Origin: Alphaproteobacteria bacterium | Lineage (GTDB): Bacteria > Pseudomonadota > Alphaproteobacteria > HIMB59 | Length of the DNA stretch: 51,549 nt | Assembly (NCBI GenBank): GCA_029246865.1 | Contig: JAQWMI010000045.1 | Location: forward strand, 1-51,549 | Direction: 5' to 3' | Shown here: one piece after another, positions 27,892 through 48,774 of the stretch | How the letters are laid out: each line of letters begins with the position of its first letter | Position numbering within the stretch: position 1 is the stretch's first letter | Notes under the pieces: generated by a model | What the model saw: only the letters and a program-made list of their open reading frames with translations | Databases searched by the model: none | What the model was told of the DNA's origin: nothing | Position numbers and translations under genes: made by a program

Positions 27892-29187
27892 TTAATAGTT
27901 AGTGGCTTTTAAACCAAGTTCAGCCTTGTCAATACCTGCTTGTTGAACGTGATCAGGAACTCTTAACCATCCCATCATTTTCATTACAAACGATACTCCC
28001 CATCCAGGTATGAAACCAACAGCAAACATAGTTAGACAGCCAACAAATTGACCATATAAACTAGCCGCTGGAATTGTATCGTCCATACCAGGGTAACCTG
28101 AAGCAAAGATACCCATGGCTAAAACACCCCAAATACCTGCTACACCGTGAACAGCTACAGCTCCTACTGGATCATCGATCTTAAAGACTTTATGTAACCA
28201 GTTATTAGCAGGAATAATAATACACCCACCAACAAATCCTAGAACGAAAGCTAGTCCTGGATACCAAATATCTAAACCAGATGCACATGAGAAAATACCT
28301 GCAAGTCCACCTGACATCATCCAAAAAGGATTACCTTTACTAATCCAGAAGGCACCAATCATACCACCAGCAAGACCCATTAGAGTATTGAAAGCAAATG
28401 AGGATAAAGTAGCTGGAACAAAGTAAATAGTGGTCCATGTATTAACACCTTCATAAGCTGGAATACCTGGCCAAATTAGACATGCTCCTAAGAAACCAAA
28501 GAATCCTACGATTATCATTAAAAGTCCTACAAAAGAGAACCTTAAATCATGTCCTTCTAGCTCATTCATTGATCCGTCAGCATTGTATCTGCCTACTCTT
28601 GGTCCTAAATTTAAGATAACACCAAATGCAAACCAACCTGCAATCATATGTACAACACCTGCTGCAGCTACATCATGATAACCAAATTTTGTTACCAACC
28701 AACCATCATAATGCCAACCCCATGAAGCGCCAAGATTCCAACAAACTGAACCTAAAAGCACAGCTAAGAAAACAAAAGAACTAATTCTAATTCTTTCGAT
28801 AACAGCACCTGAGAAAACTGAAGCAGTTGTACAAGCAAATAGAGTAAATGCAGCCCAAAAGACACCAGTTAATTGATCTGAAAGCATAGGTCCCATTGAT
28901 ACATTCCAGGGCACGCCATAACCTTCCATATCCATTGGAATTAATCCATGAGGAAATGCTAGGTAAATATACCACCCGAATAACCAAAATGTCGGTATCA
29001 TAAACGCAAAAGCGAGAAGATTTTTAACACCAGAAGAAACAGCGTTTTGCATTCTTGACGCTCCCACTTCGTACATTAAAAAACCAACGTGAATCGCAAT
29101 CATTAATCCAGTCATGATGTAATACCAGCCTTCGGCTGCCACATATGTCTGAGTAATGACCGCGGTTGTAAGTTCTTCTAAAGTCAT
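27892..29187 (-). CDS. amt: Ammonium/methylammonium transporter, Amt family
   Basis: Inner-membrane channel for ammonium, about eleven helices, 431 aa. The pore twin histidines are in AAAGVVHMIAGW and in VGAVAVHGVAGIWG. The N-terminal part (MYEVGASRMQNAVSSGVKN) differs from the E. coli AmtB pattern, so this is a divergent subfamily. AAGGAG precedes the ATG. It is divergent from gmaS across a 190-bp gap with a palindromic operator at 29281. This suggests that it takes up methylamine as well as, or instead of, ammonia, or recovers leaked ammonia; that is inference. Confidence 0.9.
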   Translation of the reverse strand: MTLEELTTAVITQTYVAAEGWYYIMTGLMIAIHVGFLMYEVGASRMQNAVSSGVKNLLAFAFMIPTFWLFGWYIYLAFPHGLIPMDMEGYGVPWNVSMGPMLSDQLTGVFWAAFTLFACTTASVFSGAVIERIRISSFVFLAVLLGSVCWNLGASWGWHYDGWLVTKFGYHDVAAAGVVHMIAGWFAFGVILNLGPRVGRYNADGSMNELEGHDLRFSFVGLLMIIVGFFGFLGACLIWPGIPAYEGVNTWTTIYFVPATLSSFAFNTLMGLAGGMIGAFWISKGNPFWMMSGGLAGIFSCASGLDIWYPGLAFVLGFVGGCIIIPANNWLHKVFKIDDPVGAVAVHGVAGIWGVLAMGIFASGYPGMDDTIPAASLYGQFVGCLTMFAVGFIPGWGVSFVMKMMGWLRVPDHVQQAGIDKAELGLKATNY

Positions 29188-29377: not shown

Positions 29378-30685
29378 ATGTCAATAAATTTACATAATTA
29401 TGCCAAGAAAAATGGTATCGAATATTTTTTTGTAAGCTTTGTCGATATGTTTGGGATATTAAGATCAAAATTAGTTCCCTCTAGAGCTATAGATGAAATC
29501 CAATCTGAAGGAGCAGGCTTTGCAGGTTTTGCAACTTGGCTTGATATGTCTCCATCTGACCCTGATATGTTTGGAATGCCTGATGGAGATAGTGTAATAC
29601 AATTACCTTGGGATAAAAAAATTGCTTGGGTTGCCTGTGACTTATATATGTCTGGTAAGCCAGTTGAAGCGTCACCTAGAATTGCATTAAAAAGACAAAT
29701 GGAAAAAGCCGCCAAATTAGGAATGTATATGAAGTCTGGAGTTGAATGTGAATACTTTTTAGTAAACTCTAATGGTACCGAATTATCAGATTTAAAAGAT
29801 ACTCAAGAAAAACCTTGTTATGACTCTTCAGCCTTAATGAGAAGATATGATGTAATTACAGAAATATGTGACTCTATGATTGAGCTGGGATGGAATCCCT
29901 ATCAAAACGATCATGAAGATGCTAACGGTCAGTTTGAAATGAATTGGGATTTTTCTGACTGTCTAATTACCGCTGATAGACACGCTTTTTTTAAATTTAT
30001 GACTAAGACCATCGCTGAAAAAAATGGCTTAAGAGCTACATTTATGCCTAAACCTTTCACAAACTTAACTGGTAATGGTTGTCATAGTCATATTTCAGTT
30101 TGGGATAAATCAGGTAAGAAGAACTTATTTCATGACAAGAAAGATGAATTAGGTTTGTCTAAAACTGGCTATAATTTTCTTGGAGGAATTGTTCATAGTG
30201 CTGATAAAATGGCAGCAATTTTTAATCCTACAGTAAATAGTTACAAGAGAATTAATGGTTCTGTCACTCTTTCCGGAGCGACATGGTCACCAAGCTCAAT
30301 TACTTGGGCAGGAAATAATAGAACACATATGGTTCGTGTTCCAGGTCCTGGTCGCTTTGAACTGAGGTTAATGGATGGTGCTTCTAATCCATATTTACTT
30401 CAAGCTGGGAGTTTAATGCTAGGCTTAGATGGAGTGAATAATAAAAGAGATCCAGGAAAAAGATTAGACATCAATATGTACACGGAAGGACATAAAGCCG
30501 GAAAAGTAAAGAAGCTTCCATTAAACTTATTGGACTCTATTCGTAATTTCGACGCATCTACAATAATTAGAGAAGGTTTTGGAAACCAATTTGTTGATAG
30601 TTACGTAAAATTAAAGAACAAAGAATGGGAGTCTTACAATAAACATCTCTCCGAATGGGAAAGAAATACAACACTAGACTGTTAA
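29378..30685 (+). CDS. gmaS: Gamma-glutamylmethylamide synthetase (GmaS)
   Basis: Joins methylamine to the gamma-carboxyl of glutamate with ATP, the first step of the N-methylglutamate pathway. It has 435 aa, the length of the 'type III glutamate-ammonia ligase' family to which marine GmaS belongs. Family stretches seen are VSFVDMFGILRSKLVPS, GAGFAGFATWLDMSPSDPDM, NDHEDANGQFEMNWD, TGNGCHSHISVWDKSG and AGNNRTHMVRVPGPGRFE. The GlnA-type adenylylation loop is replaced by NMYTEGHKAG. TAGGAG precedes the ATG. The pathway genes mgs and mgd lie 10-16 kb away under the same putative operator. Confidence 0.92.
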   Translation: MSINLHNYAKKNGIEYFFVSFVDMFGILRSKLVPSRAIDEIQSEGAGFAGFATWLDMSPSDPDMFGMPDGDSVIQLPWDKKIAWVACDLYMSGKPVEASPRIALKRQMEKAAKLGMYMKSGVECEYFLVNSNGTELSDLKDTQEKPCYDSSALMRRYDVITEICDSMIELGWNPYQNDHEDANGQFEMNWDFSDCLITADRHAFFKFMTKTIAEKNGLRATFMPKPFTNLTGNGCHSHISVWDKSGKKNLFHDKKDELGLSKTGYNFLGGIVHSADKMAAIFNPTVNSYKRINGSVTLSGATWSPSSITWAGNNRTHMVRVPGPGRFELRLMDGASNPYLLQAGSLMLGLDGVNNKRDPGKRLDINMYTEGHKAGKVKKLPLNLLDSIRNFDASTIIREGFGNQFVDSYVKLKNKEWESYNKHLSEWERNTTLDC

Positions 30686-31719: not shown

Positions 31720-32214
31720 TTATTCGACTAACTTAAAGTTCTCGCCTTTTGTATAGGTTCTCTTAAGTTGAACAAGAGGATGATTTGGTGACATTTGAAA
31801 TTTAATTAATAATTCCCTTGCTAACATATCTCTATCTTGTTGACCTTTAGGAAGTTTGATTTTTTTTGGTAGTGTTATCCATGCATTAGCATTTCTATCA
31901 AACACCGCTGGAGTATCACCTTCAAAACCCATATGGATGTCTTCTAACCAATTCAAATCATCCCAACCCATAATATCAATATACTTTTTAAGAAATGGTG
32001 TTAAGTGTTTGTAGTCGGGTATTAAATTAACATCATAACGATAACCGATATGTTGACCGATCATCTTTTCTCTTGATGATTTAATTTCCTTATCTTTTAA
32101 CTTAGCACCACCGACAACTTTGTAGCCAGTTTTTGTATCTTTACTCTTAGCTGTAGTTTTTTTCTTTGAACTACTTGGAGATTTTTTCTTTGTAGTTTTT
32201 TTCTTTTTTACCAT
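31720..32214 (-). CDS. Lys-rich protein at the end of the glxBCD-type operon, unknown
   Basis: 164 aa. The first ~40 residues are a low-complexity Lys/Ser/Thr tail (MVKKKKTTKKKSPSSSKKKT). The rest looks folded, with IGQHIGYRYDVNLIPDYKH, a Trp-rich GWDDLNWLEDIHMGF and KGQQDRDMLARELLI. It has no membrane helix, and I do not recognise a family. It follows the FMN-subunit gene by 17 bp on the same strand and the hairpin at 31681 ends the unit. The other mgs set in this window has no counterpart. Confidence 0.8.
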   Translation of the reverse strand: MVKKKKTTKKKSPSSSKKKTTAKSKDTKTGYKVVGGAKLKDKEIKSSREKMIGQHIGYRYDVNLIPDYKHLTPFLKKYIDIMGWDDLNWLEDIHMGFEGDTPAVFDRNANAWITLPKKIKLPKGQQDRDMLARELLIKFQMSPNHPLVQLKRTYTKGENFKLVE

Positions 32215-32231
32215 AAGTTATTTCCCTCCCT

Positions 32232-33566
32232 TTAAATTGAGTGATAGTTGTCGACACCAACAGTCAAGTCAGTACCTGCTAAAGGAACTTTAGCCATTGC
32301 TGATGACTCCATAGTTAGAGCAGCTAAATCTTCAGGCTCAAGTGAATGGATATTAGTTTTTCCACAAGCTCTTGCTAACATTTGGCACTCAAGTGTCATT
32401 GTACTTAATAGATTATAAACTCTATCTGCAGCTTCAGTTGGATCTAATCTGCTTCTTAGAACTGGATCTTGTGTTGCAACACCCACAGGACATCTTCCTG
32501 TATGGCAGTGATAACAGTAACCAGCTTCAACACCCATTTCTTTTTCGTAGTCTGCTTCTGGGATATCTTTGTTACAATTAAGCGCAACTAAACCAGCAGT
32601 TCCGATGGCGATAGCATCAGCACCAAGAGCTATAGCTTTAGCCATATCCGCTCCATCTCTAATACCTCCAGCAAATACAAGAGAAACTTCTCCAGATTTA
32701 CCAACATCATCTAGTGCTCTTCTAGCTTCTCTTACAGCAGCGATTCCAGGTATACCTGTGTTTGCAGCGGCGATGTGTGGACCAGCAGCAGTTGAACCTT
32801 CCATACAATCTAAAAAGATTGAATCAGGATCACATTTTGCAGCCATACGAACATCATCATAAACTCTAGAAGCACCAATTTTTAATTGAATAGGCACTTG
32901 ATTATCTGTTAACTCTCTTAACTCTTGGACTTTTAAAGCTAAATCATCAGGACCCATCCAGTCAGGATGTCTAGCTGGTGATCTTTGATCGATACCAGCA
33001 GGTAGAGATCTCATTTCAGCAACTTGGTCAGTAACTTTTTGACCCATTAAATGTCCACCCATACCGACTTTTTGACCTTGGCCAATAAATACTTCAATAG
33101 CATCAGCTAATTGAGCATGATGAGGGTTAAAACCGTATCTTGATTGGATACATTGATAGTACCATTTATTGGAATACCTTCTTTCATCAGGAATCATTCC
33201 TCCTTCTCCAGAACAAGTAGCACTTCCAGCCATAGCTGAACCTCTAGCCAAAGCAGTTTTAGCCTCATAAGAAAGAGCACCAAAACTCATACTTGTTATA
33301 TAGACAGGTATATCTAGTTTGATTGGATTCTTGGCTCTAGGACCAATTATCGTTTCTGTTAAACACTTCTCTCTGTATCCTTCGATAACAAATCTAGTTA
33401 ATGTACCTGGTAGAAAAACCAAATCATCCCAATGAGGGATTTTTTTCATAAGAGCCATACCTCTCATACGGTAACGACCTAGTTGTGCTTTGATATGGAT
33501 GTCATCCATCACTTCAGGAGTGAAGATTGAGTTTTTTCCTAATAATTGCGTATTACGTTTTGTCAT
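32232..33566 (-). CDS. glxD: FMN-binding glutamate-synthase-like subunit with Fe-S cysteines (GlxD/MgsC type, set 1)
   Basis: Corresponds to the FMN/Fe-S domain of glutamate synthase, where an amine reacts with a keto acid and is reduced. It has 444 aa, a TIM barrel with SMSFGALSYEAK, GQGQKVGMGG, FAGGIRDGADMAKAIALGAD, and a cysteine cluster Cys351, Cys354, Cys359 in CYHCHTGRCPVGVATQ, as in GltB. It is third in a set (amidotransferase, GXGXG, FMN subunit) preceded by a GS-like gene and a FAD oxidoreductase. About half of it is close in pattern to the copy at 39209, which lacks the cysteines. The symbol follows the rhizobial glx naming; the reaction is unproven. Confidence 0.87.
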   Translation of the reverse strand: MTKRNTQLLGKNSIFTPEVMDDIHIKAQLGRYRMRGMALMKKIPHWDDLVFLPGTLTRFVIEGYREKCLTETIIGPRAKNPIKLDIPVYITSMSFGALSYEAKTALARGSAMAGSATCSGEGGMIPDERRYSNKWYYQCIQSRYGFNPHHAQLADAIEVFIGQGQKVGMGGHLMGQKVTDQVAEMRSLPAGIDQRSPARHPDWMGPDDLALKVQELRELTDNQVPIQLKIGASRVYDDVRMAAKCDPDSIFLDCMEGSTAAGPHIAAANTGIPGIAAVREARRALDDVGKSGEVSLVFAGGIRDGADMAKAIALGADAIAIGTAGLVALNCNKDIPEADYEKEMGVEAGYCYHCHTGRCPVGVATQDPVLRSRLDPTEAADRVYNLLSTMTLECQMLARACGKTNIHSLEPEDLAALTMESSAMAKVPLAGTDLTVGVDNYHSI

Positions 33567-33571
33567 TTTTT

Positions 33572-34408
33572 CTAACCTAAGATACCTTTCTTTTCTGCTG
33601 GCTCTAAATTGTCATAATTCCATAGCATTCTTCCTGCCACATACTTCTTAAATTTAGAAGCTGGAACTTTACAATCAATTTCAGCATTTTTTATTTTTTG
33701 TTCTAACCATCTGATTTCATGATCATTCATTTCACCCTCAACACAGTCTGTTCCTAGCGATCTAGGCTCACCACCAACGAAGATAATTCCGTCATACATA
33801 GAGTCACCCATGTTTGCACTAACGTTACCACAAACAATGATACGACCTCTTTGCATCATAAATCCAGTATATGCTCCAGCATTACCACCAACTAAGATAG
33901 TTCCACCCTTCATATCAATACCGGTTCTTGCACCAGCGTCACCCTTACAGATTAAATCACCACCTCTAAGAGCTGCACCAAAACATGATCCTGCATTATT
34001 TTCTACAACAACCTTACCAGACATCATATTTTCAGCACATGACCAACCAACTCTTCCATTAATTCTAACAGTAGGTCCATCAATACAACCAACACCAAAA
34101 TAACCTAAGCTACCTTCAAATATTAAGTTTAATTTATTAAGTATTCCTACACCCAATGCATGCTTAGCACCGGGATTTTTAATAACAATTGAACCGTAAC
34201 CTTTTAGAAGTGCATTTCTAACCTTTTGGTTAAGTTCTTTACCGTCAAGATCTTTGCAATCAATTTCGGTTCTTTTATTAAAATCAACATCATGGTTACC
34301 ATAATACGTAAAATTTTCTTCCTCAGTAACTTCAAAAAATAATTTTTGAGATCTTCCAGATAAATTTTCGTCTTGGAAAGCAGTTACTTTTTTTTCTAAA
34401 CCTGCCAT
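33572..34408 (-). CDS. glxC: GXGXG beta-helix subunit, glutamate-synthase-like (GlxC/MgsB type, set 1)
   Basis: Corresponds to the C-terminal GXGXG domain of glutamate synthase, a right-handed beta helix that links the other two subunits. It has 278 aa. Repeating glycine turns are seen from about 110 to 245 (GYFGVGCIDG, CAENMMSGKVVV, GDAGARTGIDMKGG, GNAGAYTGFMMQRG, GNVSANMGDSMYDG). Its ATG lies inside the end of the amidotransferase gene (13-bp overlap), and the FMN subunit follows after 5 bp. It is longer at the N-terminus than the 231-aa copy at 40541. Confidence 0.88.
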   Translation of the reverse strand: MAGLEKKVTAFQDENLSGRSQKLFFEVTEEENFTYYGNHDVDFNKRTEIDCKDLDGKELNQKVRNALLKGYGSIVIKNPGAKHALGVGILNKLNLIFEGSLGYFGVGCIDGPTVRINGRVGWSCAENMMSGKVVVENNAGSCFGAALRGGDLICKGDAGARTGIDMKGGTILVGGNAGAYTGFMMQRGRIIVCGNVSANMGDSMYDGIIFVGGEPRSLGTDCVEGEMNDHEIRWLEQKIKNAEIDCKVPASKFKKYVAGRMLWNYDNLEPAEKKGILG

Positions 34409-35346
34409 ACTTTTACCTCCGCTTCATATGGGTCGTACGTTACAATTTCATGGGGAAAAATATTTCTAATTGCAACTTCTTCAGAAGCACAAGCGACGAT
34501 ATCTTTTCCTTCATAAATGACCATAGGTTTTGCAGCCATATGATCTTTAGCCATACCTAGTTGATTTTTAGTTGAAACAATGTAAGTGAAAACACCATCT
34601 AGCTCATCTAGACTATCATTCATTGCTTGTTCTAATTCAATTCCTTTAGACATTTTATCGGCAATATAAACCGCAATAATTTCCGAGTCACAATTAGAAT
34701 TAAAGCGATAGCCACTTCTCTCTAATACTCTTCGATTACCCCAATAATTAGTTAGTTGTCCGTTATGAACGACAGCTACATCCTGATATGGAAATGCCCA
34801 ATAAGGGTGAGCAGATTTAATATCCACATCAGACTCGGTTGCCATTCTTGTATGGCCGATACCATGAGTTCCCATAAATTTACCAAGACCATATTGATCT
34901 GCAACGACTGTTGCATCACCAAGATCTTTTATCAACTCAAGACCTTTTCCAATTGATAAGATTTCAGTTTTTTCAACTGTCTCTATCGCTTTTGCCAATT
35001 CTTCTAGATTTTCACTTTTATAAGTAAATTCATAGCGAAATGCGTAAGGAGTACTTGATGACTGCTTGGTAATCTTTGCTCCATGTTCCTTCATTAGTGC
35101 GTCCACCTGCTTTTTACGATCCTTTAGAACTTCTGGATCCTCAGTCTTAGCTGAACCTTTTACCTCAGCTGCATTTTCAGATATTTTAAATCTGAGAATA
35201 AAGCCAGTTTTCAAAGGCGTACCATACATAGCATAACCAGTTGAGTCTGGACCTCTATGTTTAATACCTTGAAGCATTAATCTCATTTGTTCACCGACAT
35301 TAACGCTTTTCTTACTTCTATTAATTACTCCTGCTATTCCGCACAT
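34396..35346 (-). CDS. glxB: Class II amidotransferase subunit (GlxB/MgsA type, set 1)
   Basis: N-terminal-nucleophile amidotransferase that would release ammonia or an amine from a gamma-glutamyl amide. I chose the ATG at 35346 because Cys2 (MCGIAGVI) must be the first residue after Met removal and AAGGAG precedes it. The frame is open further up to 35424, inside the GS gene, but such a leader would bury the nucleophile. It has 316 aa, with GHTRMATESD and VVHNGQLTNY as in purF/GltB amidotransferase domains. Confidence 0.9.
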   Translation of the reverse strand: MCGIAGVINRSKKSVNVGEQMRLMLQGIKHRGPDSTGYAMYGTPLKTGFILRFKISENAAEVKGSAKTEDPEVLKDRKKQVDALMKEHGAKITKQSSSTPYAFRYEFTYKSENLEELAKAIETVEKTEILSIGKGLELIKDLGDATVVADQYGLGKFMGTHGIGHTRMATESDVDIKSAHPYWAFPYQDVAVVHNGQLTNYWGNRRVLERSGYRFNSNCDSEIIAVYIADKMSKGIELEQAMNDSLDELDGVFTYIVSTKNQLGMAKDHMAAKPMVIYEGKDIVACASEEVAIRNIFPHEIVTYDPYEAEVKVWQV

Positions 35347-35371
35347 TTCGCTATTCTCCTTATAATTATTT

Positions 35372-36838
35372 TTATGGTAGGCAATCCAAGTATTTATCAA
35401 GATCCCACTGAGTTGGAGTAGCAAGAAATTCTTCCCACTCGTCAGTTTTGTATTCTGTAAATACTCTTAACATATCTCCAGGCATAGCGTCTTGAATAAC
35501 TTTATCTTTTGAAAGTTTTTCTAGAGCCTCACCTAAAGTCATTGGTAATTTTTCTTTACCTTCATTAGCTTCATACATGTTAGCTTGTTCAGGTTTACCT
35601 GGATCCATTTTTTCAGAAATACCATGACTAAATGCTTTAAGTAATCCTGATCCCATGAGGTAAGGGTTATGAGCAGAGTCTACTGAACGGTATTCAAATC
35701 TACCTGGTGCAGAAACTCTTAAACCACAGGTTCTATTTTGGAAACCCCAGTCTGCGTAAACTGGTGCCCAGAAACCTGCGTCCCAAAGCCTTCTGTATGA
35801 GTTAACCGTTGAAGAACCAATTGATGTAAGCGCTGGAAGATGTTCCATAACTCCACCAATTGCCTGAAGTCCAATTTTACCTGGAATTTTATTATCATCA
35901 GTATCGGGCATGAACACATTCTCGCCACCACTTCTATGGTGATAAACTTGCTCCATACCAGGAAGCGCCTTAACGTCGTTTCCACAAGGGATTACTTTGT
36001 CAGTTCCGTCTTTCCATAAAGAAATATTTGTATGACAACCAGAGGCTGAAACACCAACAAAAGGTTTTGATAAAAAACAAGCTATCAAATTAAACTCTCT
36101 AGCTACTTGAGCACAAATCTGCCTGTATGTTGATAATCTATCCGCGTTTCTCACTACGTCATCATAATTAAAGTTAAGCTCTAATTGACCTGGAGCATCT
36201 TCGTGATCACCTTGAATAATATCAAGACCCATCAGACGGGAGTATTCAATAACCTTCATATAAACAGGTCTCAAAGATTCAAATTGATCTATATGATAAC
36301 AATAAGGCTTAGAAAAACCAGAACCAGTAGGAGTTCCATCTTCATTTTTGGTCAACCACATCATTTCAGGCTCTGTACCTGCTCTTAATTCAAGGCCATG
36401 CTTATCCTTAAATTCTTGGTGATGTCTCTTTAAATTACCACGACAATCAGAAGTTAAAAAACCACCCGGATCTTCATCTTCTTCTCTGTTTCTAAAACAT
36501 GTACAAAAAACTCTAGCGATTCTTTTATCCCAAGGAAGTTGCATGAATGTTTCTGGATCGGGAATACCAACAAGCTCATGAGCTTCAGGCCCGTAACCAA
36601 TATAGTTGCCATTTCTATTAGTAAATAAATTTGCAGTTGAACCGTAAACTAATTGGAAACCTTTTTTAGCAACATTTTCCCAATGATCAGCAGGATAACC
36701 TTTACCTACAATTCTTCCTGTTACAGAAATAAATTGAAAGTAAATGTATTCAATACCCAGTTCATTTATTTTACTTCTTACTTTTTGTACGTTTTCATTT
36801 CTTTCTTTATCGGCAACGTATGTTTCTAATGCAGTCAT
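35372..36838 (-). CDS. Glutamine-synthetase-family ligase of the glxBCD-type operon
   Basis: GS-fold gamma-glutamyl ligase, 488 aa. Core stretches include GTEPEMMWL, GDHEDAPGQLELNFNYDD, GVSASGCHTNISLWKDG and the ATP/Glu region QNRTCGLRVSAPGRFEYRSVD. There is no GlnA-type adenylylation loop (NMYEANEGKEK). AGGAGG lies before the ATG. It sits between the FAD oxidoreductase and the amidotransferase subunit in one operon, so its product is probably handed to that set. It differs clearly from GmaS, so the amine may not be methylamine. Confidence 0.87.
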   Translation of the reverse strand: MTALETYVADKERNENVQKVRSKINELGIEYIYFQFISVTGRIVGKGYPADHWENVAKKGFQLVYGSTANLFTNRNGNYIGYGPEAHELVGIPDPETFMQLPWDKRIARVFCTCFRNREEDEDPGGFLTSDCRGNLKRHHQEFKDKHGLELRAGTEPEMMWLTKNEDGTPTGSGFSKPYCYHIDQFESLRPVYMKVIEYSRLMGLDIIQGDHEDAPGQLELNFNYDDVVRNADRLSTYRQICAQVAREFNLIACFLSKPFVGVSASGCHTNISLWKDGTDKVIPCGNDVKALPGMEQVYHHRSGGENVFMPDTDDNKIPGKIGLQAIGGVMEHLPALTSIGSSTVNSYRRLWDAGFWAPVYADWGFQNRTCGLRVSAPGRFEYRSVDSAHNPYLMGSGLLKAFSHGISEKMDPGKPEQANMYEANEGKEKLPMTLGEALEKLSKDKVIQDAMPGDMLRVFTEYKTDEWEEFLATPTQWDLDKYLDCLP

Positions 36839-36861
36839 TTTACTATTCCTCCTCCTTTACA

Positions 36862-38208
36862 TCAACTCCACGGGAACGGGCTCTTAGAGACCGGATGTAA
36901 TTTCCCTTGTTCATATCTAGAAAATCTGAATGGTTCTAAAATATCAGATTTTCCACCTAGTAATTCATCAGAGACTAAATCACCAATGCCAGCCATCTTA
37001 TAGCCATGGTTAGCATCAGCAATAATATAAACGTTCTCTCTGTACTGATCAAAAACAGGGAACCTATCGGGTGTTACACAACCAATACCACCTGCTTTTT
37101 GTTTTTTATAATTAGCATGACAGCCAACAAATTGCTTTTGGCAAAAAGCTAGAGCTGAGGTGAACTTATCTTCAAAAGATTCTCTTGGTTGGAATTCATT
37201 TGAATTGTGACCATAAGGATCTAAAGATACATCTTCATTAGCTTTTGTCACGTCATAGGGTGAAGAACCACCTTGAATACCATTTCTATAAACGTCTGGC
37301 TTATAATAAAATCCCCACATTTCATTTTCATGAATTGCGTGACCGTTTTTGTCGGACATCAGAGTTGCTTCTGTATCGACGTGAATAACGGGATATTCAG
37401 TTCCTTTAGCAGTTCTATATGAGTGAGGGTCTACATCTAACTCCCCTTCTTCCAAAGCCATATAAGACCACATCTGCAAGTCGTCAGTAAAAGATCCATC
37501 TGGCTTTTTAATTTTAATTGTTTTTGGTAAGTCCAACATTTCCCAAAAATTTCTTACCCACGGTCCTGCAGAAACAACTAACTGTTCGCATTCAATTGTA
37601 CCCTCACTGGTTTCAACTGATTTAACCGCCTGACTTCCACTTGAGGTATTAAGTGAAGTAACAGTGACACCTTCTAAAACTTTTGCGCCGGCACTAATAG
37701 CTAGCTTGTGGAAGCCTTCAATAGCTCCCCTATTTGCACCATATCCTGTTTTCTTTTCATGAAGAACAGAAGTAATACCTTGGGCTTGCCAATCAGGTAA
37801 AAGATCTTTCATATATTTATCGCAATCAGCTTCGCCTTCAATAAATTCAGAATCAAATCCCATTTCTTTTTGTTGTTGATAAACAGATGACATACCTTCG
37901 TGCATTAATTGAGAATTAATTTGCATGTAACCAACTGGCCTGTAAGTCAATGCTTCTGCATTTGCATTCCAAACTTTTATTGAGTGATCCATAAGATGTC
38001 TCATGGCAGGTTGAAAATAATTATTTCTTACGATGCCACAAGCTACGCCACTTGCACCGTCAGCCACTTTAGATTTTTCTAAAACAACAACTGAATTTTC
38101 TTTTAATTGGCCTTTTTTAGCAAGCTTCTGACAAAGATGCCAAGCAGTGCTCAGACCATGAATACCTGCTCCTATTATAAGGTAGTCACATTTAGATGGT
38201 ATGCTCAT
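36862..38208 (-). CDS. FAD-dependent amine oxidoreductase (DAO/SoxB-like)
   Basis: Flavoprotein of the D-amino-acid oxidase/sarcosine oxidase fold, 448 aa. The dinucleotide-binding GAGIHGLSTAW is at 13-23 and the C-terminal ADANHGYKMAGIGDLVSDE closes the FAD site. The stretch that in SoxB/MgdA carries the flavin-linked histidine (ARHDAVAWG) reads YGANRGAIEGFH here, so covalent FMN is not expected. GGAGG precedes the ATG, with a palindromic operator 58 bp upstream. It is first gene of the operon with the GS and glxBCD-type subunits, and would oxidise a secondary amine or N-alkyl amino acid; the substrate is unknown. Confidence 0.85.
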   Translation of the reverse strand: MSIPSKCDYLIIGAGIHGLSTAWHLCQKLAKKGQLKENSVVVLEKSKVADGASGVACGIVRNNYFQPAMRHLMDHSIKVWNANAEALTYRPVGYMQINSQLMHEGMSSVYQQQKEMGFDSEFIEGEADCDKYMKDLLPDWQAQGITSVLHEKKTGYGANRGAIEGFHKLAISAGAKVLEGVTVTSLNTSSGSQAVKSVETSEGTIECEQLVVSAGPWVRNFWEMLDLPKTIKIKKPDGSFTDDLQMWSYMALEEGELDVDPHSYRTAKGTEYPVIHVDTEATLMSDKNGHAIHENEMWGFYYKPDVYRNGIQGGSSPYDVTKANEDVSLDPYGHNSNEFQPRESFEDKFTSALAFCQKQFVGCHANYKKQKAGGIGCVTPDRFPVFDQYRENVYIIADANHGYKMAGIGDLVSDELLGGKSDILEPFRFSRYEQGKLHPVSKSPFPWS

Positions 38209-38265
38209 AATTCCTCCGATTTATAAATTGATATTCTAGTGACTGAGTGTAGAAAAACATATGAT

Positions 38266-38282
38266 GTTTCATTATATGAAAC
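38266..38282. promoter_or_regulatory. Candidate IclR operator before the FAD-oxidoreductase operon
   Basis: GTTTCATTATATGAAAC, a perfect palindrome with 7-bp arms and a 3-base centre. It lies 58 bp before the FAD-oxidoreductase start and just after the iclR stop. It is the most symmetric of the six sites. Confidence 0.75.
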
Positions 38283-38303
38283 AATTTAACAAGCTAAATA
38301 ACT

Positions 38304-39068
38304 TTATTTATCAACAATTAAGTTAGTTATTTTAAGTGAGGCATTTTGTAGTATTTTTATGTAATCAGGTAATTGTTTTGGTGACATCAAAACCTTACTT
38401 CCTGAAAAAGAAATACCTGCAAAAGATCTCTGATCATGATCAAGAATAGCAACACCTACACCATAAACGTTATCAAATGTCTCAGCATGATTAAGCGAAT
38501 ATCCTTGTTTACGAATCGTATTTAATTCTTTTTTGAGAGATGTAATATTTGCTATTGTGTGATTTGTATGAGGATAAAAATTATAACTTTTGTAGATAAG
38601 TGATATTTCATTATCCGGCCTGTAAGCAAGAATAACTTTACCAATAGCACAACAATGGGCATCAAGCCTCATGCGAAAAGTTCTGAAATTTCCACTATCA
38701 TTATTTGATGAGATTTTATCTGAATGCACAATTTGAGGTCCCTCTAACATAGCTAAATACGTGATCAATCCCGTCTGTTTTGAGATATCATTTAAAATAT
38801 CTTTAGACTCTTCAGATATAGATTGAAGATAATCTGATATTTCTCCAAACTGAAAAGCTTTATGACCCATCGTATAGGTATTAGTCTCAGAATTTTTATG
38901 AATATAACCTAACTGATTTAAAACTGATAATAATCTAAAAGTTGTAGTTCTCGACATGACAGCTTTTCTAGAAATAGAACTTGCCTTAAGAGGGAAAACA
39001 GATTGAGAGAGTATTTCGAGAATTTTAAAAGACTTTTGTAATGATTTATTAATATATTTACTTTCCAT
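38304..39068 (-). CDS. IclR-family transcriptional regulator
   Basis: 254 aa. The N-terminal winged helix-turn-helix (about 8-70, KSFKILEILSQS, SISRKAVMSRTTTFRLLSVL, LGYIHKN) is followed by the ligand-binding domain (GPQIVHSDK, DAHCCAIGKVILAY, GVGVAILDH, AGISFSG). It stands between the two mgs-type operons. Two palindromes lie within 70 bp upstream of its start, which points to self-control. Repeats of the same palindrome before the neighbouring amine genes make it the likely regulator of all of them. The ligand could be a gamma-glutamyl amide, N-methylglutamate or an amine, but that is guesswork. Confidence 0.92.
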   Translation of the reverse strand: MESKYINKSLQKSFKILEILSQSVFPLKASSISRKAVMSRTTTFRLLSVLNQLGYIHKNSETNTYTMGHKAFQFGEISDYLQSISEESKDILNDISKQTGLITYLAMLEGPQIVHSDKISSNNDSGNFRTFRMRLDAHCCAIGKVILAYRPDNEISLIYKSYNFYPHTNHTIANITSLKKELNTIRKQGYSLNHAETFDNVYGVGVAILDHDQRSFAGISFSGSKVLMSPKQLPDYIKILQNASLKITNLIVDK

Positions 39069-39208: not shown

Positions 39209-40537
39209 TTAATAATTATTTTTACTACCTGGAATCCAGTTAGTTCCTGATAGAGGCACACCTGCCATAGCTGCCGCTTCTACAGTTAAGGCACATAAGT
39301 CTTCAGGTTCAAGATTATGTAAATCATTTTTTCCACAAGCTCTTGCAATAGTCTGAGCCTCTAAAGTCATAACTTTTAAATAATTAGATAATCTTTTTCC
39401 TCCAGCTACAGGATCAAACCTTTTCATAAGCTTTGGATCTTGGGTGTTAATTCCAGCAGGATCTTTACCTTCATGCCAATCATCATAGGCCCCAGCAGTT
39501 GTACCTAGTTTTTTATATTCTGCTTGCCATTTAGGATCATTATCACCAAGAGCAATCAGAGCGGCAGAACCAATTGATACAGCATCAGCGCCTAGTGCCA
39601 TAGCTTTTGCAACATCCGCGCCATTTCTAATCCCTCCAGATACTATTAGTTGTACTTTTCTGTGCATGTCTAAATCTTGTAATGCTTGAACTGCAGGCCT
39701 TATACAAGCCAATGTAGGTTGACCAACATTTTCAATAAAAACCTCTTGAGTAGCTGCAGTTCCGCCCTGCATTCCATCGAGAACAACAACATCTGCTCCA
39801 GCCTTAACAGCTAAAGCTGTATCATAGTAAGGTCTTGAGCCTGCAACTTTTACAAATATGGGAACTCTCCAACCTGTGATTTCTCTTAATTCTAATATTT
39901 TAATTTCTAAATCATCTGGTCCGGTCCAATCAGGATGTCTACAAGCAGACCTTTGATCAATACCCTTAGGAAGCGTTCTCATATCAGCAACTCTATCGCT
40001 AATTTTTTGACCTAATAACATTCCTCCACCACCTGGCTTTGCTCCTTGACCAATCACAACTTCAATAGCATCTGCTTTTCTTAAATCATCAGGGTTCATT
40101 CCATATCTAGATGGAAGTAATTGGTATACTAAATTTTTAGACTGGCCTCTCTCTTCAGGTGTCATTCCTCCGTCACCAGTTGTAGTTGAAGTTCCAGCAA
40201 TACTAGCCCCTCTGCCAAGTGCTTCTTTAGCAGGTCCAGACAAAGCTCCAAAACTCATTCCTGCAATTGTAATTGGAATATCAAGATATAATGGATTTTT
40301 TGCATACCTAGTACCTAGCTGCACTTTTGTACTACAAGACTCTCTATAACCCTCATAGGGATATCTTGACATTGAGGCTCCAAGGAAAAGTAAATCATCA
40401 AAATGAGGTAATTTTCTTTTTGAACCACCACCCCTAATATCATAAATTCCTGTTTCAGCAGCCCTTCTAATTTCTGAATTTGTATATTCGTCGAATGTCC
40501 AAGACTGTCTAGGGGTTGTTTTAAATTTATCACTCAT
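39209..40537 (-). CDS. mgsC: N-methylglutamate synthase FMN subunit (MgsC), without Fe-S cysteines
   Basis: Glutamate-synthase-like FMN barrel, 442 aa (IAGMSFGALSGPAKEALGRG, GQGAKPGGGGMLLGQ, SGGIRNGADVAKAMALGAD). Where the paralogue at 32232 has three cysteines, this one has YDDWHEGKDPAGINTQ (351-366), so no Fe-S cluster can form there. It is last gene of the mgdABCD-mgsABC operon, three bases after mgsB. It would combine methylamine released from gamma-glutamylmethylamide with 2-oxoglutarate and reduce the product to N-methylglutamate. The assignment rests on operon context and family. Confidence 0.88.
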   Translation of the reverse strand: MSDKFKTTPRQSWTFDEYTNSEIRRAAETGIYDIRGGGSKRKLPHFDDLLFLGASMSRYPYEGYRESCSTKVQLGTRYAKNPLYLDIPITIAGMSFGALSGPAKEALGRGASIAGTSTTTGDGGMTPEERGQSKNLVYQLLPSRYGMNPDDLRKADAIEVVIGQGAKPGGGGMLLGQKISDRVADMRTLPKGIDQRSACRHPDWTGPDDLEIKILELREITGWRVPIFVKVAGSRPYYDTALAVKAGADVVVLDGMQGGTAATQEVFIENVGQPTLACIRPAVQALQDLDMHRKVQLIVSGGIRNGADVAKAMALGADAVSIGSAALIALGDNDPKWQAEYKKLGTTAGAYDDWHEGKDPAGINTQDPKLMKRFDPVAGGKRLSNYLKVMTLEAQTIARACGKNDLHNLEPEDLCALTVEAAAMAGVPLSGTNWIPGSKNNY

Positions 40538-40540
40538 TTA

Positions 40541-41236
40541 TTAATATTCCGAAACATTATCTATATTGAAATTATATAATTTTCTTGCAGAGCCGTACAT
40601 TTTAAAATCATTAGCATCAAAATTTTTTATGTTAGCTTTTTTTAATAAAGATTTTAATATTTCCATATCTTTTTTACTTATTTTTTTTTCTTCACAATCG
40701 GCACCTAAGGACTTAACAGTTCCTCTTACAAACAATTTTGCTTCATAGAGACTATCGCCTAATGCTTCGCCGGCATCACCACAAATAACCATATTGCCAG
40801 CTTGAGCCATAAATGCAGACATATGCCCAACAGATCCTTTGACTATAATATCTATACCTTTCATAGAAATACCACACCTTGAACTTGCATTACCATCAAT
40901 AATAAGGGTGCCACCATGAGCAGTAGCTCCAGCTGATTGAGAGGCATTTCCTTTTACGTGGACAGTTCCAGACATCATATTTTCAGCAACGCCTGTGCCT
41001 ACATTACCTTCAATAGTGATGAGAGCTTTTTGATTCATACCTGCACAATAATAACCAACATGACCTTTAACTAAAACTTCCATTTCATCTTTTAATCCAG
41101 CACAAACTGCATGATTACCAGTTGGATTAGTAACAAGATAATTTCTTAAGTTGGACTTAGGGTCAAGATTTTGCAAAAGATCATTTACTTCTCTTAAAGT
41201 TTTTTTCTTTAGGTCTAATTTAATTAGTTCCCCCAT
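40541..41236 (-). CDS. mgsB: N-methylglutamate synthase GXGXG subunit (MgsB)
   Basis: 231 aa of glycine-turn beta helix (GNVGTGVAENMMSGTVHVKG, GGTLIIDGNASSRCG, GDAGEALGDSLYEAKLFVRG). Its start lies 13 bp inside the end of mgsA, exactly as in the other set. It is probably the structural link between the amidotransferase and FMN subunits. Confidence 0.88.
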   Translation of the reverse strand: MGELIKLDLKKKTLREVNDLLQNLDPKSNLRNYLVTNPTGNHAVCAGLKDEMEVLVKGHVGYYCAGMNQKALITIEGNVGTGVAENMMSGTVHVKGNASQSAGATAHGGTLIIDGNASSRCGISMKGIDIIVKGSVGHMSAFMAQAGNMVICGDAGEALGDSLYEAKLFVRGTVKSLGADCEEKKISKKDMEILKSLLKKANIKNFDANDFKMYGSARKLYNFNIDNVSEY

Positions 41237-42114
41237 GAATACACTACTCCCGGTTCTGGTTCAAAAATTTTAGCCGTATTAACACCTGGCAGATGAGCCA
41301 TTGCTTGAAACTCAGATGCGATAGCTACATAGTCTTTTGTTTCAGCAATTACTGCTGGCTTACATGCAATTTCATCTCTAACAATAGCAAAGCCTTCTCT
41401 TGTTCCAGTAATAAAAGTGTAGAAACCATCAAGGTCCTTTAAACCATTCACGAGAGTTTCTTTTAAAGATTTTTTATTAGATAAACTATTTGAAACATAT
41501 CCAGCTGCAACTTCTGTGTCATTTTCAGAGTCAAAAGACTGACCTTGTTTTAAAAGTTTTCTTCGTAAGTTATTATGATTTGAAAGGGATCCATTATGAA
41601 CGAGACATTCGTCTTGCCCTGTAGAGTAAGGATGTGAGCCATTGGTTGTAATAGCACTTTCTGTAGCCATTCTTGTGTGTCCAATAGCATGAGTACCAGA
41701 AAACTTATCTAACTGAAAATTTTTTATAACGTCAATTGGATTACCGACTTGTTTAAAAATTTCAATAGACTTTCCGTATCCAACTAAAGATGCTTCTTTT
41801 AACTCAGTAGATATAAAAGAAACTATTTTTTTAGGATCTGAGTCTGAAGTTAAAATAACATGATCAGAATGTTGCTTAATTTTTAAATTCTTAAATTTTT
41901 TTGTAATAATCTTTTTGAAAGTATTAAAAGAATAATTATTTAAAAGGCAAACAGAGTATTTATATTCTTTAGATTTTTTATTTTCAGAGTATATGGCAAA
42001 ACCTGCACTATCTGGACCACGTGTGGCCATACCCTGCATCATTCCAGTTAGATATTTACCTAAGTCTTTTGAAAGTTTTTTATTTTTTAAATATATACCG
42101 ACGATGCCGCACAT
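41224..42114 (-). CDS. mgsA: N-methylglutamate synthase amidotransferase subunit (MgsA)
   Basis: Class II amidotransferase, 296 aa. Cys2 (MCGIVGIYL) is the N-terminal nucleophile. GHTRMATESAITTNGSHPY and CLVHNGSLSNH complete the site. GGAGAA precedes the ATG. It lies three bases after mgdD, linking the dehydrogenase and synthase halves in one transcript. It is expected to split gamma-glutamylmethylamide and pass methylamine on. Confidence 0.9.
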   Translation of the reverse strand: MCGIVGIYLKNKKLSKDLGKYLTGMMQGMATRGPDSAGFAIYSENKKSKEYKYSVCLLNNYSFNTFKKIITKKFKNLKIKQHSDHVILTSDSDPKKIVSFISTELKEASLVGYGKSIEIFKQVGNPIDVIKNFQLDKFSGTHAIGHTRMATESAITTNGSHPYSTGQDECLVHNGSLSNHNNLRRKLLKQGQSFDSENDTEVAAGYVSNSLSNKKSLKETLVNGLKDLDGFYTFITGTREGFAIVRDEIACKPAVIAETKDYVAIASEFQAMAHLPGVNTAKIFEPEPGVVYSWGN

Positions 42115-42117: not shown

Positions 42118-42723
42118 TTATTCTCCAGCATAACCATACTCTAAAGCTGCATCAGTAATACTGTGATAAAAAGAACCACCAAAACTACGAAGACAGAAAA
42201 GTCTGAAAGTTGGATTTACATCATCTACAAAATCAACAGTAAAACTAATACCATTATAAGATGAATTGGCACAATTATTTTTTTTAAATTCTGAACCATT
42301 TAAGTTTAAAGGAGATCCTTTTTTTAGAATATCAATCGCATGCTTACCACAAATCTCTATGCCAGCTCTTGAGTGAGATATATCAGTGGTAGCAAAATCT
42401 TCTTCATTCACAGAATTTACAATTTTAGATTTGATATTCTTATCTGAAGACACAACTAAACAAATATCTGGGCCTGTCCAAAGAATTCTAGTTTCATTGT
42501 TAAAACTTACATTTGGGTAAGATTGAGGAAAATCGAGGTTATCAATTTTTATTGTTTCAGTTTTTACGTTACTACTTTTGAATTTTGCTATTTGAAAAAT
42601 TGAAAGATTTTTTAGCTCTTTAATTTTTAATAGGTCTTTAGATTCAATATCATGATAATTACCAAAATTGCCAATCTTATGATCATTATGTAATGCTGAT
42701 AAGACTATATTTGAATCGCTCAT
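42118..42723 (-). CDS. mgdD: N-methylglutamate dehydrogenase subunit D (SoxG-like gamma subunit)
   Basis: 201 aa, homologous in layout to the gamma subunit of heterotetrameric sarcosine oxidase (ILWTGPDICLVVS, DISHSRAGIEICGKHAIDILKKG, TFRLFCLRSFGGSFYHSITDA). This is a divergent version of a GcvT-like fold. The start overlaps the mgdC stop by one base. The choice between NMG dehydrogenase and sarcosine oxidase rests on the adjacent mgsABC. Confidence 0.85.
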   Translation of the reverse strand: MSDSNIVLSALHNDHKIGNFGNYHDIESKDLLKIKELKNLSIFQIAKFKSSNVKTETIKIDNLDFPQSYPNVSFNNETRILWTGPDICLVVSSDKNIKSKIVNSVNEEDFATTDISHSRAGIEICGKHAIDILKKGSPLNLNGSEFKKNNCANSSYNGISFTVDFVDDVNPTFRLFCLRSFGGSFYHSITDAALEYGYAGE

Positions 42724-45722: not shown

Positions 45723-45727
45723 AATTT

Positions 45728-45994
45728 TTATAAGTCTTCTTCTAACTTTGCAGTATTAAATATTTCATGAGTAGCCGTATCCCTTAACGCCTTAAACCAT
45801 TGTCTGCAACCAGATACATGATGCCAGAACTCCTGATGCTTACCTCTAGGGTTATCTCTAAAGTAAACAAAGTCATCCCAATCTTTTGTAGAGACTTCTT
45901 CTCCTAATTTAGGTCTTTTAATAGTTGCATCACCACCATAAGCAAATTCATTTTGTGATCTCTTACCACAATGAGGGCATTTAATTTCTAACAT
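45728..45994 (-). CDS. mgdB: N-methylglutamate dehydrogenase subunit B (SoxD-like delta subunit)
   Basis: 88 aa zinc-binding small subunit. CPHCGKRSQNEFAYGGDA at the N-terminus and EFWHHVSGCRQWF later carry the likely Cys/His ligands, as in sarcosine oxidase delta. It is three bases after mgdA and 5 bp before mgdC. Confidence 0.9.
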   Translation of the reverse strand: MLEIKCPHCGKRSQNEFAYGGDATIKRPKLGEEVSTKDWDDFVYFRDNPRGKHQEFWHHVSGCRQWFKALRDTATHEIFNTAKLEEDL

Positions 45995-45997
45995 AAA

Positions 45998-47254
45998 CTA
46001 GCCTATCCAAGGTTTTGGACCGACACCCTTTTCATCAAGAATATTACCAGTGTGAAATCTCTCTAAGTTAAATGGTTCGTTTAATTCATGAGGTTCGTTT
46101 TTAGCAATAGTATGAGCAAACACAAAACCAGAACAAGGAGTTGCCTTAAAGCCTCCATAGCACCAACCACAGTTTAGATAAACACCGTCGATATGAGTTT
46201 TATCAATGATTGGAGTTCCGTCCATTGACATATCCATTATGCCTCCCCAACTTCTTAACATCTTTAATCTACTGAAATTTGGAAACACGGCTAATCCTCC
46301 TGATAAAACATGTTGTATCATTGGTAAGTTACCTCTTTGTGCGTAGCTATTGTAACCATCCAAATCGCCACCCATAACCATCTCACCTTTGTCTGATTGA
46401 CTGCAGTAAAAGTGTCCAGCTCCAAAAGTAACAACATTATGAAGAAGTGGTTTCACAGGTTCAGAAACACAGGCTTGTAAGACGTGAGCTTCAATTGGTA
46501 ATCTCATATTTAGCTTATCAGCAAGTAAGGTAGTACTTCCTGCAACGCACAGACCAACTTTTTTAGCTTTAATATCTCCTCGAGATGTTCTTACTCCAGA
46601 AATTTTTCCATTTTCAACATCAAATCCTGTAACTTCACAATTTTGAATAATATCAACTCCCATTGCATCAGCTTGCCTAGCATAACCCCAAGCAACTGCA
46701 TCATGACGTGCAGTACCACCTCTTGGCTGCATTAAACCTCCAACTATAGGAAAGCGACAAGTTTCAGAAAAATCAGCAAAGGGAATCATTTTCCTAACTT
46801 CTTCTCTATTAAGTAAAATAGCATCGATGCCATTTAATCTCATAGAGTTACCTCTTCTAGCATAGGCGTTCAGTTGACCATCTGTGTGCGCTAAATTAAT
46901 TATCCCTCTTGGGGAGTACATTACGTTGTAATTTAATTCTTGACTTAAATTTTCCCAAAGTTTCATCCCCAACTCATAGAAATGCGCATTAGCATCAAAC
47001 ATATAATTTGATCTTAAGATAGTAGTGTTTCGTCCGACGTTACCTCCACCAATCCAACCTTTTTCAATCACAGCAACATTGGTAATGTTATGTTCTTTTG
47101 CTAAGTAATAAGCAGTAGCCAATCCGTGTCCACCACCACCAATTATTATGACGTCATATTCTTTTTTAGGCTGAGGGTCTTTCCAAGCTAGATCCCAATT
47201 CTGATGATCAGAGAAAGCGTTTTTAATTAAACTAAATACTGAATATTTTTGCAT
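45998..47254 (-). CDS. mgdA: N-methylglutamate dehydrogenase subunit A (SoxB-like beta subunit)
   Basis: FAD/FMN amine dehydrogenase, 418 aa. The dinucleotide site is IIIGGGGHGLATAYYLA (36-52). The stretch GGTARHDAVAWGYAR puts His184 at the place of the covalently linked flavin in sarcosine oxidase beta. The C-terminal YLNCGWCYGGFKATP closes the FAD site. It is first gene of the seven-gene minus-strand operon, with a palindromic operator 58 bp upstream. By itself it cannot be told from SoxB. Confidence 0.88.
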   Translation of the reverse strand: MQKYSVFSLIKNAFSDHQNWDLAWKDPQPKKEYDVIIIGGGGHGLATAYYLAKEHNITNVAVIEKGWIGGGNVGRNTTILRSNYMFDANAHFYELGMKLWENLSQELNYNVMYSPRGIINLAHTDGQLNAYARRGNSMRLNGIDAILLNREEVRKMIPFADFSETCRFPIVGGLMQPRGGTARHDAVAWGYARQADAMGVDIIQNCEVTGFDVENGKISGVRTSRGDIKAKKVGLCVAGSTTLLADKLNMRLPIEAHVLQACVSEPVKPLLHNVVTFGAGHFYCSQSDKGEMVMGGDLDGYNSYAQRGNLPMIQHVLSGGLAVFPNFSRLKMLRSWGGIMDMSMDGTPIIDKTHIDGVYLNCGWCYGGFKATPCSGFVFAHTIAKNEPHELNEPFNLERFHTGNILDEKGVGPKPWIG

Positions 47255-47433: not shown

Positions 47434-48774
47434 ATGACAAAAATAGCAATCATTGGAGCAGGACCGAGTGGCTTAGCTCAATTAAGAGCATTCGAATCAG
47501 CTGAAAAAAATGGAGATAAAATTCCAGAGGTTGTTTGTTTTGAAAAACAAGAGGACTGGGGTGGACTATGGAATTACACTTGGAGAACAGGAACTGATGA
47601 ATTTGGCGAACCTGTGCACTGCAGTATGTACAGATACCTTTGGTCTAATGGCCCTAAAGAATGCTTAGAATTTGCCGACTATAGTTTCGAAGAGCATTTT
47701 GGAAAACCTATAGCATCTTATCCACCAAGAGCTGTTATGTTGGATTATATTCAAGGAAGATTAGCAAAATCTAATTTTAGAGATAAAATCAAATTTAGAA
47801 CTCCTGTGAGAAGTGTAATTTTTAACAAAGAGAAAAATAATTTTACAATTACATCTCACGATCTTAAAAGTGATAAAGTTAATGTCGATGAATTTGATTT
47901 TGTTGTATGTGCAAGCGGTCATTTTTCAACCCCTAATGTACCAAGCTTTGATGGGTTAGATAAATTTGGTGGGCGTGTCATGCATGCGCATGATTTTAGA
48001 GATGCATTGGAATTTAAAGATAAAGATCTATTAATTGTTGGTACAAGTTACTCTGCTGAAGATATTGCCTCTCAATGCTATAAATATGGAGCAAAATCTA
48101 TAACCATTAGTTATAGAACTAATCCTACAGGTTTTCATTGGCCTGAAAATTTTTCTCAAGTTCCTTTAATAAGTAAAATTGAAGAAGGAAATAAGATTCA
48201 TTTCATTGATGGTTCTACTCGAGTTGTGGATGCTATTGTATTGTGTACTGGCTATTTGCATCACTTTCCTTTTCTAACCGATGATTTAAAACTGAAAACT
48301 AATAACTGCCTATGGCCGTTAGGAATTTACAAAGGTATTTTCTGGGTAGATAATCCAAAAATGATGTATCTTGGAATGCAAGATCAATTTTATACTTTTA
48401 ATATGTTTGATGTGCAGGCTTGGTATGCAAGGGATTATATGATGGGAAAAATCGCTCTTCCTAATAAAGATGAAATGCTTAAAAATAATCAAGATTGGAA
48501 AGATAGAGAAGAGAAACTTGAGACTGACGAGGATATGATCTGGTTCCAGGGTGATTATACAAAAGAGTTAATGGAAGCTACAGACTACCCAACCTTTGAT
48601 ATAGAAGGTGTTAATAATTTATTCATGGAATGGGAACATGATAAACATAATGATATAATGGGTTACAGAAATAAGTCCTATAAGTCACTCATGACTGGAA
48701 ATACTGCTCCAGCCCATCACACGCCATGGCTTGATGAACTGGATGACTCTTATGATTCATATATGAAGAATTAA
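47434..48774 (+). CDS. tmm: Trimethylamine monooxygenase (Tmm)
   Basis: NADPH/O2-dependent flavin monooxygenase that oxidises trimethylamine to TMAO. It has 446 aa. The FAD site is [14 protein letters not shown], the FMO signature [13 protein letters not shown], and the NADPH site [12 protein letters not shown]. The stretches [20 protein letters not shown] and [15 protein letters not shown] are typical of marine bacterial Tmm rather than of other FMOs. GGGAG precedes the ATG. It is divergent from mgdABCD-mgsABC and convergent (past a small reading frame) with tdm, the enzyme that uses its product. Confidence 0.93.

Follow-up and report, generated by a model that had tools for sequence, protein, structure and literature searches.

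A paralogous ligase and glutamate-synthase-like operon as a candidate glutamate-linked dimethylamine pathway in Alphaproteobacteria

In the GmaS-MgsABC-MgdABCD methylamine pathway, a gamma-glutamyl amide ligase (GmaS) is followed by a three-subunit glutamate-synthase-like enzyme (MgsABC) that yields an N-alkylglutamate, and then by a demethylating flavoenzyme, Mgd, which acts on N-methylglutamate. Tdm, the trimethylamine N-oxide (TMAO) demethylase, makes dimethylamine (DMA), which the monooxygenase DmmDABC oxidizes directly to methylamine (PMC5520151). Lidbury et al. regarded the absence of dmmDABC in SAR11 as a bottleneck, with DMA building up and passing to the atmosphere as marine aerosol (PMC5520151). 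The SAR11 strain HTCC1062 oxidizes 14C-trimethylamine (TMA), and it grows with TMAO as sole nitrogen source although dmmDABC is absent, for which the authors proposed an unknown isoenzyme (PMC8918994). Here we describe a six-gene operon of a SAR11-like marine bacterium at positions 31720-38208 of contig JAQWMI010000045.1, the 51,549-nucleotide stretch that we analysed (the window), which probably encodes a glutamate-linked DMA pathway, as a paralogous version of the GmaS-MgsABC-Mgd route. The initial annotation had read this operon as a second route beside the methylamine one, serving a different amine by way of a glutamyl amide, an N-substituted glutamate and a flavin-dependent oxidation; the clades and pocket residues described below support that reading in silico, and genome context narrows the amine to DMA.

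Operon architecture and relation to the methylamine enzymes

The operon consists of six intact open reading frames, all on the minus strand:

36862..38208, minus strand: xFAD, flavin adenine dinucleotide (FAD) oxidoreductase of the DAO/sarcosine-oxidase superfamily, 448 aa (PF01266, E=6.5e-34); proposed N,N-dimethylglutamate demethylase
35372..36838, minus strand: xGS, glutamine synthetase (GS)-like ligase, 488 aa (PF00120, E=7.5e-77); proposed gamma-glutamyl-dimethylamide synthetase
34396..35346, minus strand: xGAT, class II glutamine amidotransferase (GATase)-like subunit with an MCGIAG start, judged from the sequence, and a predicted catalytic Cys2 (PF13522/PF13537)
33572..34408, minus strand: xGXG, GXGXG subunit (PF01493, E=4.4e-15)
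32232..33566, minus strand: xFMN, flavin mononucleotide (FMN) glutamate-synthase-like subunit with iron-sulfur (Fe-S) cysteines in a CxxCxxxxC motif (PF01645, E=2.3e-85)
31720..32214, minus strand: K164, 164-aa protein without a family, last gene of the module, following xFMN in all loci read

The genes are separated by 23 bp (xFAD to xGS), 25 bp (xGS to xGAT, counted from the MCGIAG start at 35346 and not from the TTG at 35424), -13 bp (xGAT to xGXG), 5 bp and 17 bp, in keeping with the earlier description of a one-strand operon with gaps or overlaps below 30 bp. Each part falls into a family (DAO, Gln-synt_C, class II GATase, GXGXG and Glu_synthase) except K164, and a Pfam family search found no Gln-synt_N match in xGS. 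As the operon and its gene order were found again in many genomes, this is not a chance array. Close relatives of the operon are in Pelagibacteraceae or uncultured Alphaproteobacteria.

The three-subunit layout of split GATase, GXGXG and FMN chains is that of MgsABC, and the order of reactions suggested by the genes is that of the methylamine pathway as a whole. Despite this likeness, the parts compared are distant from their window counterparts, with xGS 28% identical to GmaS, xFAD 22% identical to MgdA over 202 aa, and xFMN 51% identical to MgsC, which bears out the annotation of every part as a distinct paralogue. That annotation had made its reading depend on where the GS and FMN subunits fall in phylogenies. 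In maximum-likelihood trees, xGS stands apart from all GmaS sequences, including RhGmaS of known structure, and xFMN stands apart from all MgsC sequences, both splits with support of 100/100; because the GS tree has long branches (GlnA, GS3), only its xGS/GmaS split is used, and no deeper order. The difference between the ligase and GmaS is also seen in profile scores, where xGS reaches 287.8 bits against a TIGR03105 cut-off of 469.6 (640.7 for the window's GmaS) and lies under the cut-offs of all GS equivalogs.

The flavin enzyme differs in kind from Mgd: the operon offers one single-chain 448-aa DAO protein, and not four subunits with folate-domain SoxA-type and SoxB-type chains. MgdA bears the flavin-linking histidine of its ARHDAV motif (His184), whereas xFAD has no His at that position, and xFMN retains the CxxCxxxxC motif, whereas the window's MgsC is without all three cysteines; the annotation was thus right on both the missing histidine and the retained Fe-S cysteines. 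Among MgsC proteins themselves the motif is variable. All three cysteines are gone from the window's mgsC (39209-40537; GAYDDWHEGKDPAG), and Cys-less MgsC also occurs at loci L032, L081, L100 and L149, while the motif is kept in MgsC of L036, L037, L056, L093 and L137.

K164, the additional conserved protein that sets the operon apart from GmaS-MgsABC-MgdABCD, had been described as Lys-rich. It is indeed present as the last gene, but its Lys-richness is confined to an N-terminal tail that is variable and restricted to AT-rich lineages, and the conserved part is the ~100 C-terminal residues. No Pfam family was found for K164 in 21 members, and a comparison with PDB sequences gave one weak match (E=0.024). 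Its AlphaFold model has a predicted local distance difference test (pLDDT) score of 57, and structural comparison gave no hit better than E=1.3. As K164 accompanies xGS and xFMN even when xFAD is elsewhere, it is more likely part of the ligase/synthase than of the flavin enzyme.

Methylamine binding in RhGmaS involves K30', Y147, Q175, D177, E179, E186 and N188, and the Asp50' and flap Glu with which GlnA handles ammonia are absent (PMC7948447). We found all seven of these pocket residues kept in xGS (n=8 examined), together with R312 of the RhGmaS amine-pocket/catalytic set. At the Asp50' and flap Glu positions of the ammonium site, xGS has Val and Trp (n=8), whereas the window's GlnA has Asp and Glu. 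The xGS pocket residues thus fit an alkylamine ligase and not an ammonia ligase. They also bear on whether the operon is an ammonium-assimilating variant of the GS/glutamate synthase (GOGAT) pair, which its domain set resembles, and next to which an Amt gene lies in SAR11. We consider such a role very improbable, given the loss of both ammonia-site residues from xGS, the presence of a separate GlnA with both residues at 4993-6408, and an operator and neighbours that belong to methylamine use. The retention of GmaS pocket and catalytic residues in a protein of a separate clade suggests that xGS would work like GmaS without being GmaS. RhGmaS itself turns over DMA, if poorly (Km 16 mM, kcat 2.6/s), so DMA chemistry is possible in the GS fold; ethylamine and propylamine are also accepted.

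Association with tdm and with absence of the Dmm marker

In SAR11 contigs the gene order is tdm, xFAD, xGS, xGAT, xGXG, xFMN, K164, amt, and then mgsABC or gmaS, with the operon immediately following tdm in the same orientation. In about ten more genomes of unrelated families, xGS lies ~2-12 kb from tdm. Across 386 alphaproteobacterial genomes sampled from throughout the class, xGS was found in 27 of the 37 with Tdm and in 10 of the 349 without it (odds ratio 92). Among the 118 SAR11-family genomes, xGS and Tdm each occur in 52, and in 50 they occur together; G363, assembled as a single contig and congeneric with G283, has neither.

We then compared xGS with Dmm, for which a strong match to the HODM/Dmm family (PF11927 at E<1e-40) served as a proxy. 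The 37 Tdm-positive alphaproteobacteria divide into 28 with xGS (one as a fragment only), 7 with a strong PF11927 match, none with both and 2 with neither. This mutual exclusion is significant both by genome (Fisher p=3.5e-6, a value that is optimistic because the sample is phylogenetically structured) and by family (p=1.8e-4). In three Dmm genomes examined in detail, the PF11927 gene is at most ~15 kb from tdm, and tmm, gmaS or mgd also lie nearby. An MgdA/SoxB-type protein is present in all 37 Tdm-positive genomes. The distribution of xGS and Dmm suggests that a single step has been solved in two unrelated ways: the x operon is proposed to act at the same pathway position as DmmDABC, after Tdm, by unrelated proteins and chemistry that would first bind DMA to glutamate. 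No part of the operon matches the HODM_asu-like PF11927 subunit.

The distribution also bears on two other readings of the operon. A second isofunctional methylamine pathway, such as a high-affinity GmaS/MgsABC, would account for the shared domain set and gene logic and for the kept amine-pocket residues, and the genomes of loci L138 and L139 (G165, G140) have xGS without GmaS. We nevertheless think it improbable, since most genomes carry GmaS alongside xGS, a redundancy unlikely at 1.2-1.4 Mb; since such a pathway would not replace Dmm, whereas the observed distribution resembles a replacement; and since Mgd requires no additional flavin enzyme to oxidize N-methylglutamate. A route of the same kind for another small amine (ethylamine, ethanolamine or an amino-osmolyte), with the tdm linkage reflecting general methylamine clustering, is also unlikely, if somewhat easier to accept. 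In its favour are the ethylamine and propylamine activities of RhGmaS, the ten Tdm-less genomes with xGS, and second xGS-like copies (53-62% identical) in some genomes, which suggest that specificity may vary within the family. It leaves unexplained the mutual exclusion with Dmm, the overlap of 50 of 52 with Tdm in SAR11, the shared operator, and the occurrence of xFAD beside mgdABC.

The second xGS-like copies occur in genomes that carry the main copy as well (G245:C1:351243, G356:C56:37033, G329:C1:2379537, G398:C191 and G243:C5) and are possibly a ligase for another amine. In several families, a carbon-nitrogen hydrolase gene adjoins the module (L116:8473, L119:16500, L126-L128, L130 and L131), a possible extra amide-acting enzyme.

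The flavin enzyme and the proposed route

The nearest solved chains to xFAD are of the sarcosine oxidase type and L-amino acid deaminase, with weaker similarity to dimethylglycine oxidase/dehydrogenase. It is of the same superfamily as the sarcosine and dimethylglycine enzymes and would perform an analogous reaction, although the similarity is distant, the proposed substrate is a glutamate derivative and, in contrast to dimethylglycine oxidase/dehydrogenase, xFAD has no folate (GcvT) domain.

The context of xFAD homologues outside the operon is informative as to substrate. Homologues without xGS were found beside or near mgdABC at seven loci (L057, L059, L061, L065, L082, L091 and L095), in Pelagibius, Curvivirga, Leisingera, Tropicimonas, Epibacterium, a Burkholderiales and a Hyphomicrobiales metagenome-assembled genome. 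In Tritonibacter, Tropicimonas and Epibacterium (L063, L082, L091), genes for a GbcA-like Rieske oxygenase and its reductase are transcribed divergently from the homologue, and an OsmF-like betaine ATP-binding cassette (ABC) transporter is encoded close by. Rieske demethylases convert betaines to dimethylamino acids. If the Rieske enzyme makes the dimethylamino acid and Mgd takes the last methyl off N-methylglutamate, the step left for xFAD would be the demethylation of N,N-dimethylglutamate. From this gene context we infer N,N-dimethylglutamate as the xFAD substrate, and glutamate betaine is likely the starting compound in the Roseobacter clusters. These clusters (L063, L082, L091) are candidates for glutamate-betaine catabolism: they combine the xFAD homologue with the Rieske oxygenase and reductase, an AraC regulator and the OsmF-like ABC transporter, and L082 and L091 also carry mgdABC.

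Together, these observations suggest the following route. Tmm and Tdm supply DMA and formaldehyde from TMA/TMAO, a known step. xGS would then join DMA to glutamate at the cost of ATP, giving gamma-glutamyl-dimethylamide, from which the xGAT/xGXG/xFMN complex, probably with K164, would release the amine, condense it with 2-oxoglutarate and reduce the iminium to N,N-dimethylglutamate, returning glutamate. Oxidative demethylation by xFAD would convert this to N-methylglutamate, and MgdABCD, a known enzyme, would take off the last methyl and again return glutamate. DMA would thereby reach the Mgd step with no free methylamine formed on the way, and the x operon would stand in for DmmDABC, the DMA monooxygenase absent from SAR11.

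DMA could also be used in another order, with xFAD turning gamma-glutamyl-dimethylamide into gamma-glutamylmethylamide for MgsABC and with the x glutamate synthase in another role. This would likewise place xFAD next to xGS. We give this order little credence. Enzymes of this flavin family are not known to act typically on amides, and an N-methylated amino acid as substrate agrees with the GS-free loci in which xFAD adjoins mgdABC and a betaine-type Rieske oxygenase. In the wider form of the proposal, to which we give even chances, DMA monooxygenase is replaced in SAR11 and many other Alphaproteobacteria by a hitherto unrecognised, widespread DMA pathway with gamma-glutamyl-dimethylamide and N,N-dimethylglutamate as intermediates. 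The last flavin step of that pathway would also serve a separate glutamate-betaine catabolism in Roseobacters, where the Rieske oxygenase would supply N,N-dimethylglutamate.

Besides the structure of the genome sample, several points weigh against the N,N-dimethylglutamate route. PF11927 stands in for Dmm, and its proximity to tdm was seen only in the three genomes examined in detail (G350, G468, G323). The ten genomes with xGS and without Tdm indicate that the substrate may also come from elsewhere. A weak PF11927 match occurs in the window's genus (51-60 bits, versus 159-272 for strong matches), and a further DMA oxygenase may therefore exist there. In two genomes with both xGS and Tdm (G425, G165) no xFAD was found, and another enzyme may do the demethylation in them. 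The AlphaFold model of xFAD (pLDDT 52) has an unreadable substrate domain and was not used. Assays of the operon's enzymes were not found in the open-access literature, and the intermediates are drawn from homology and context. The weak HODM-like match itself (G000:C34:4698-5168) is on a contig other than that of the cluster; it is interrupted by a stop here and open in G004, G028 and G029.

Shared operator, neighbouring genes and SAR11 physiology

The operon lies in a region that, from the grouping of amt, gmaS, an IclR-family gene, mgsABC, mgd, tmm and tdm with it, we take to be one of trimethylamine degradation:

38265..38283, no strand: palindromic operator in front of the operon, with TGTTTCATATAATGAAACA as its sequence in the operon's direction
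38304..39068, minus strand: IclR-family regulator (PF01614/PF09339)
39209..42114, minus strand: mgsC, mgsB and mgsA, N-methylglutamate synthase set (family matches and gene order)
42118..47254, minus strand: mgd operon, N-methylglutamate dehydrogenase, with two large subunits of the SoxA and SoxB families (TIGR01372, 1318 bits; TIGR01373, 697 bits)
47434..48774, plus strand: tmm, trimethylamine monooxygenase (NF058570, 803 bits, over cut-off)
49078..51423, minus strand: tdm, TMAO demethylase, DMA producer (NF053776, 1121 bits, over cut-off)
29378..30685, plus strand: gmaS (TIGR03105, 641 bits, over cut-off; top PDB match RhGmaS 7cql, E=3.6e-180)
27892..29187, minus strand: Amt-family transporter, divergent from gmaS (TIGR00836, 203 bits, under its cut-off of 343)

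The palindrome TGTTYCATAWTATGRAACA has 6 matches in the window against 0.28 expected, and none of 100 shuffles had as many. The sites are before amt/gmaS, the x operon, iclR (two, at 39085 and 39118), mgd/tmm and tdm, in agreement with the annotated IclR-type operator shared by the operon. Searched with a strict form of the operator, the whole 1.29-Mb genome gave 6 sites, of which the window holds 5, while the reversed control gave 0, and in six sister species the operator is kept at -76 to -80 of xFAD. The IclR regulator and this operator probably control the operon together with tmm, tdm, mgd-mgs and gmaS. The sixth strict site (L146:4896-4912; G000:C41:7895-7911) is upstream of three genes that, judged from their translations, resemble a tripartite tricarboxylate-type transporter, whose substrate may belong to the same regulon.

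The published annotations of HTCC1062 SAR11_1304-1309 match the operon by annotation and gene order, not by sequence alignment: SAR11_1303 is an aminomethyltransferase, 1304 a monomeric sarcosine oxidase, 1305 glnT, 1309 hypothetical and 1310 amt. In the open-access literature we found no function given to this set. Sun et al. (2011) located the methylamine genes (NMGS/GMAS) at SAR11_1313-1316 and considered the monomeric sarcosine oxidase SAR11_1304 to be possibly for unknown substrates. SAR11_1305 has been listed together with the transporter gene SAR11_1302 (ratios 0.19 and 0.22) in sulfur-limited stationary phase. Homarine catabolism was also considered as a role for the operon, since a homarine operon has five genes plus a regulator; the open-access papers name none of those genes, and one of them reports only the participation of Mgd in homarine breakdown. 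No assignment of the gene set to DMA was found in the open-access literature (bioRxiv was outside its scope, and earlier publication elsewhere is possible). The same literature gave only seemingly unrelated papers on N,N-dimethylglutamate or glutamyl-dimethylamide as metabolites, and nothing that combines DMA, glutamine synthetase and TMAO demethylase, or glutamate betaine and N-methylglutamate.

The x operon could explain how SAR11, the most numerous bacteria of the ocean, passes the DMA step of trimethylamine breakdown without the known enzyme. If so, the operon would account for the ability of HTCC1062 to grow with TMAO as its nitrogen source (PMC8918994), and the bottleneck inferred from dmmDABC counts would be wrong, with DMA use in SAR11 about as common as tdm (50 of 52 Tdm-positive genomes). 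Gene-based estimates of marine amine cycling would change accordingly, with xGS as a countable marker gene.

Three further features of the window lie near gmaS or between it and the operon. A third GS paralogue (24971-26368, in the region 23960-27441) has Val at the position of the GmaS catalytic Asp177 and is flanked by a MetX-like hydrolase and a class I amidotransferase-like protein. A 185-aa protein without a known family is encoded 3' of gmaS (30690-31247) and also adjoins the xGS module in distant genomes. Finally, a SpeD-like S-adenosylmethionine decarboxylase gene (31291-31674) is located between the gmaS group and the operon.

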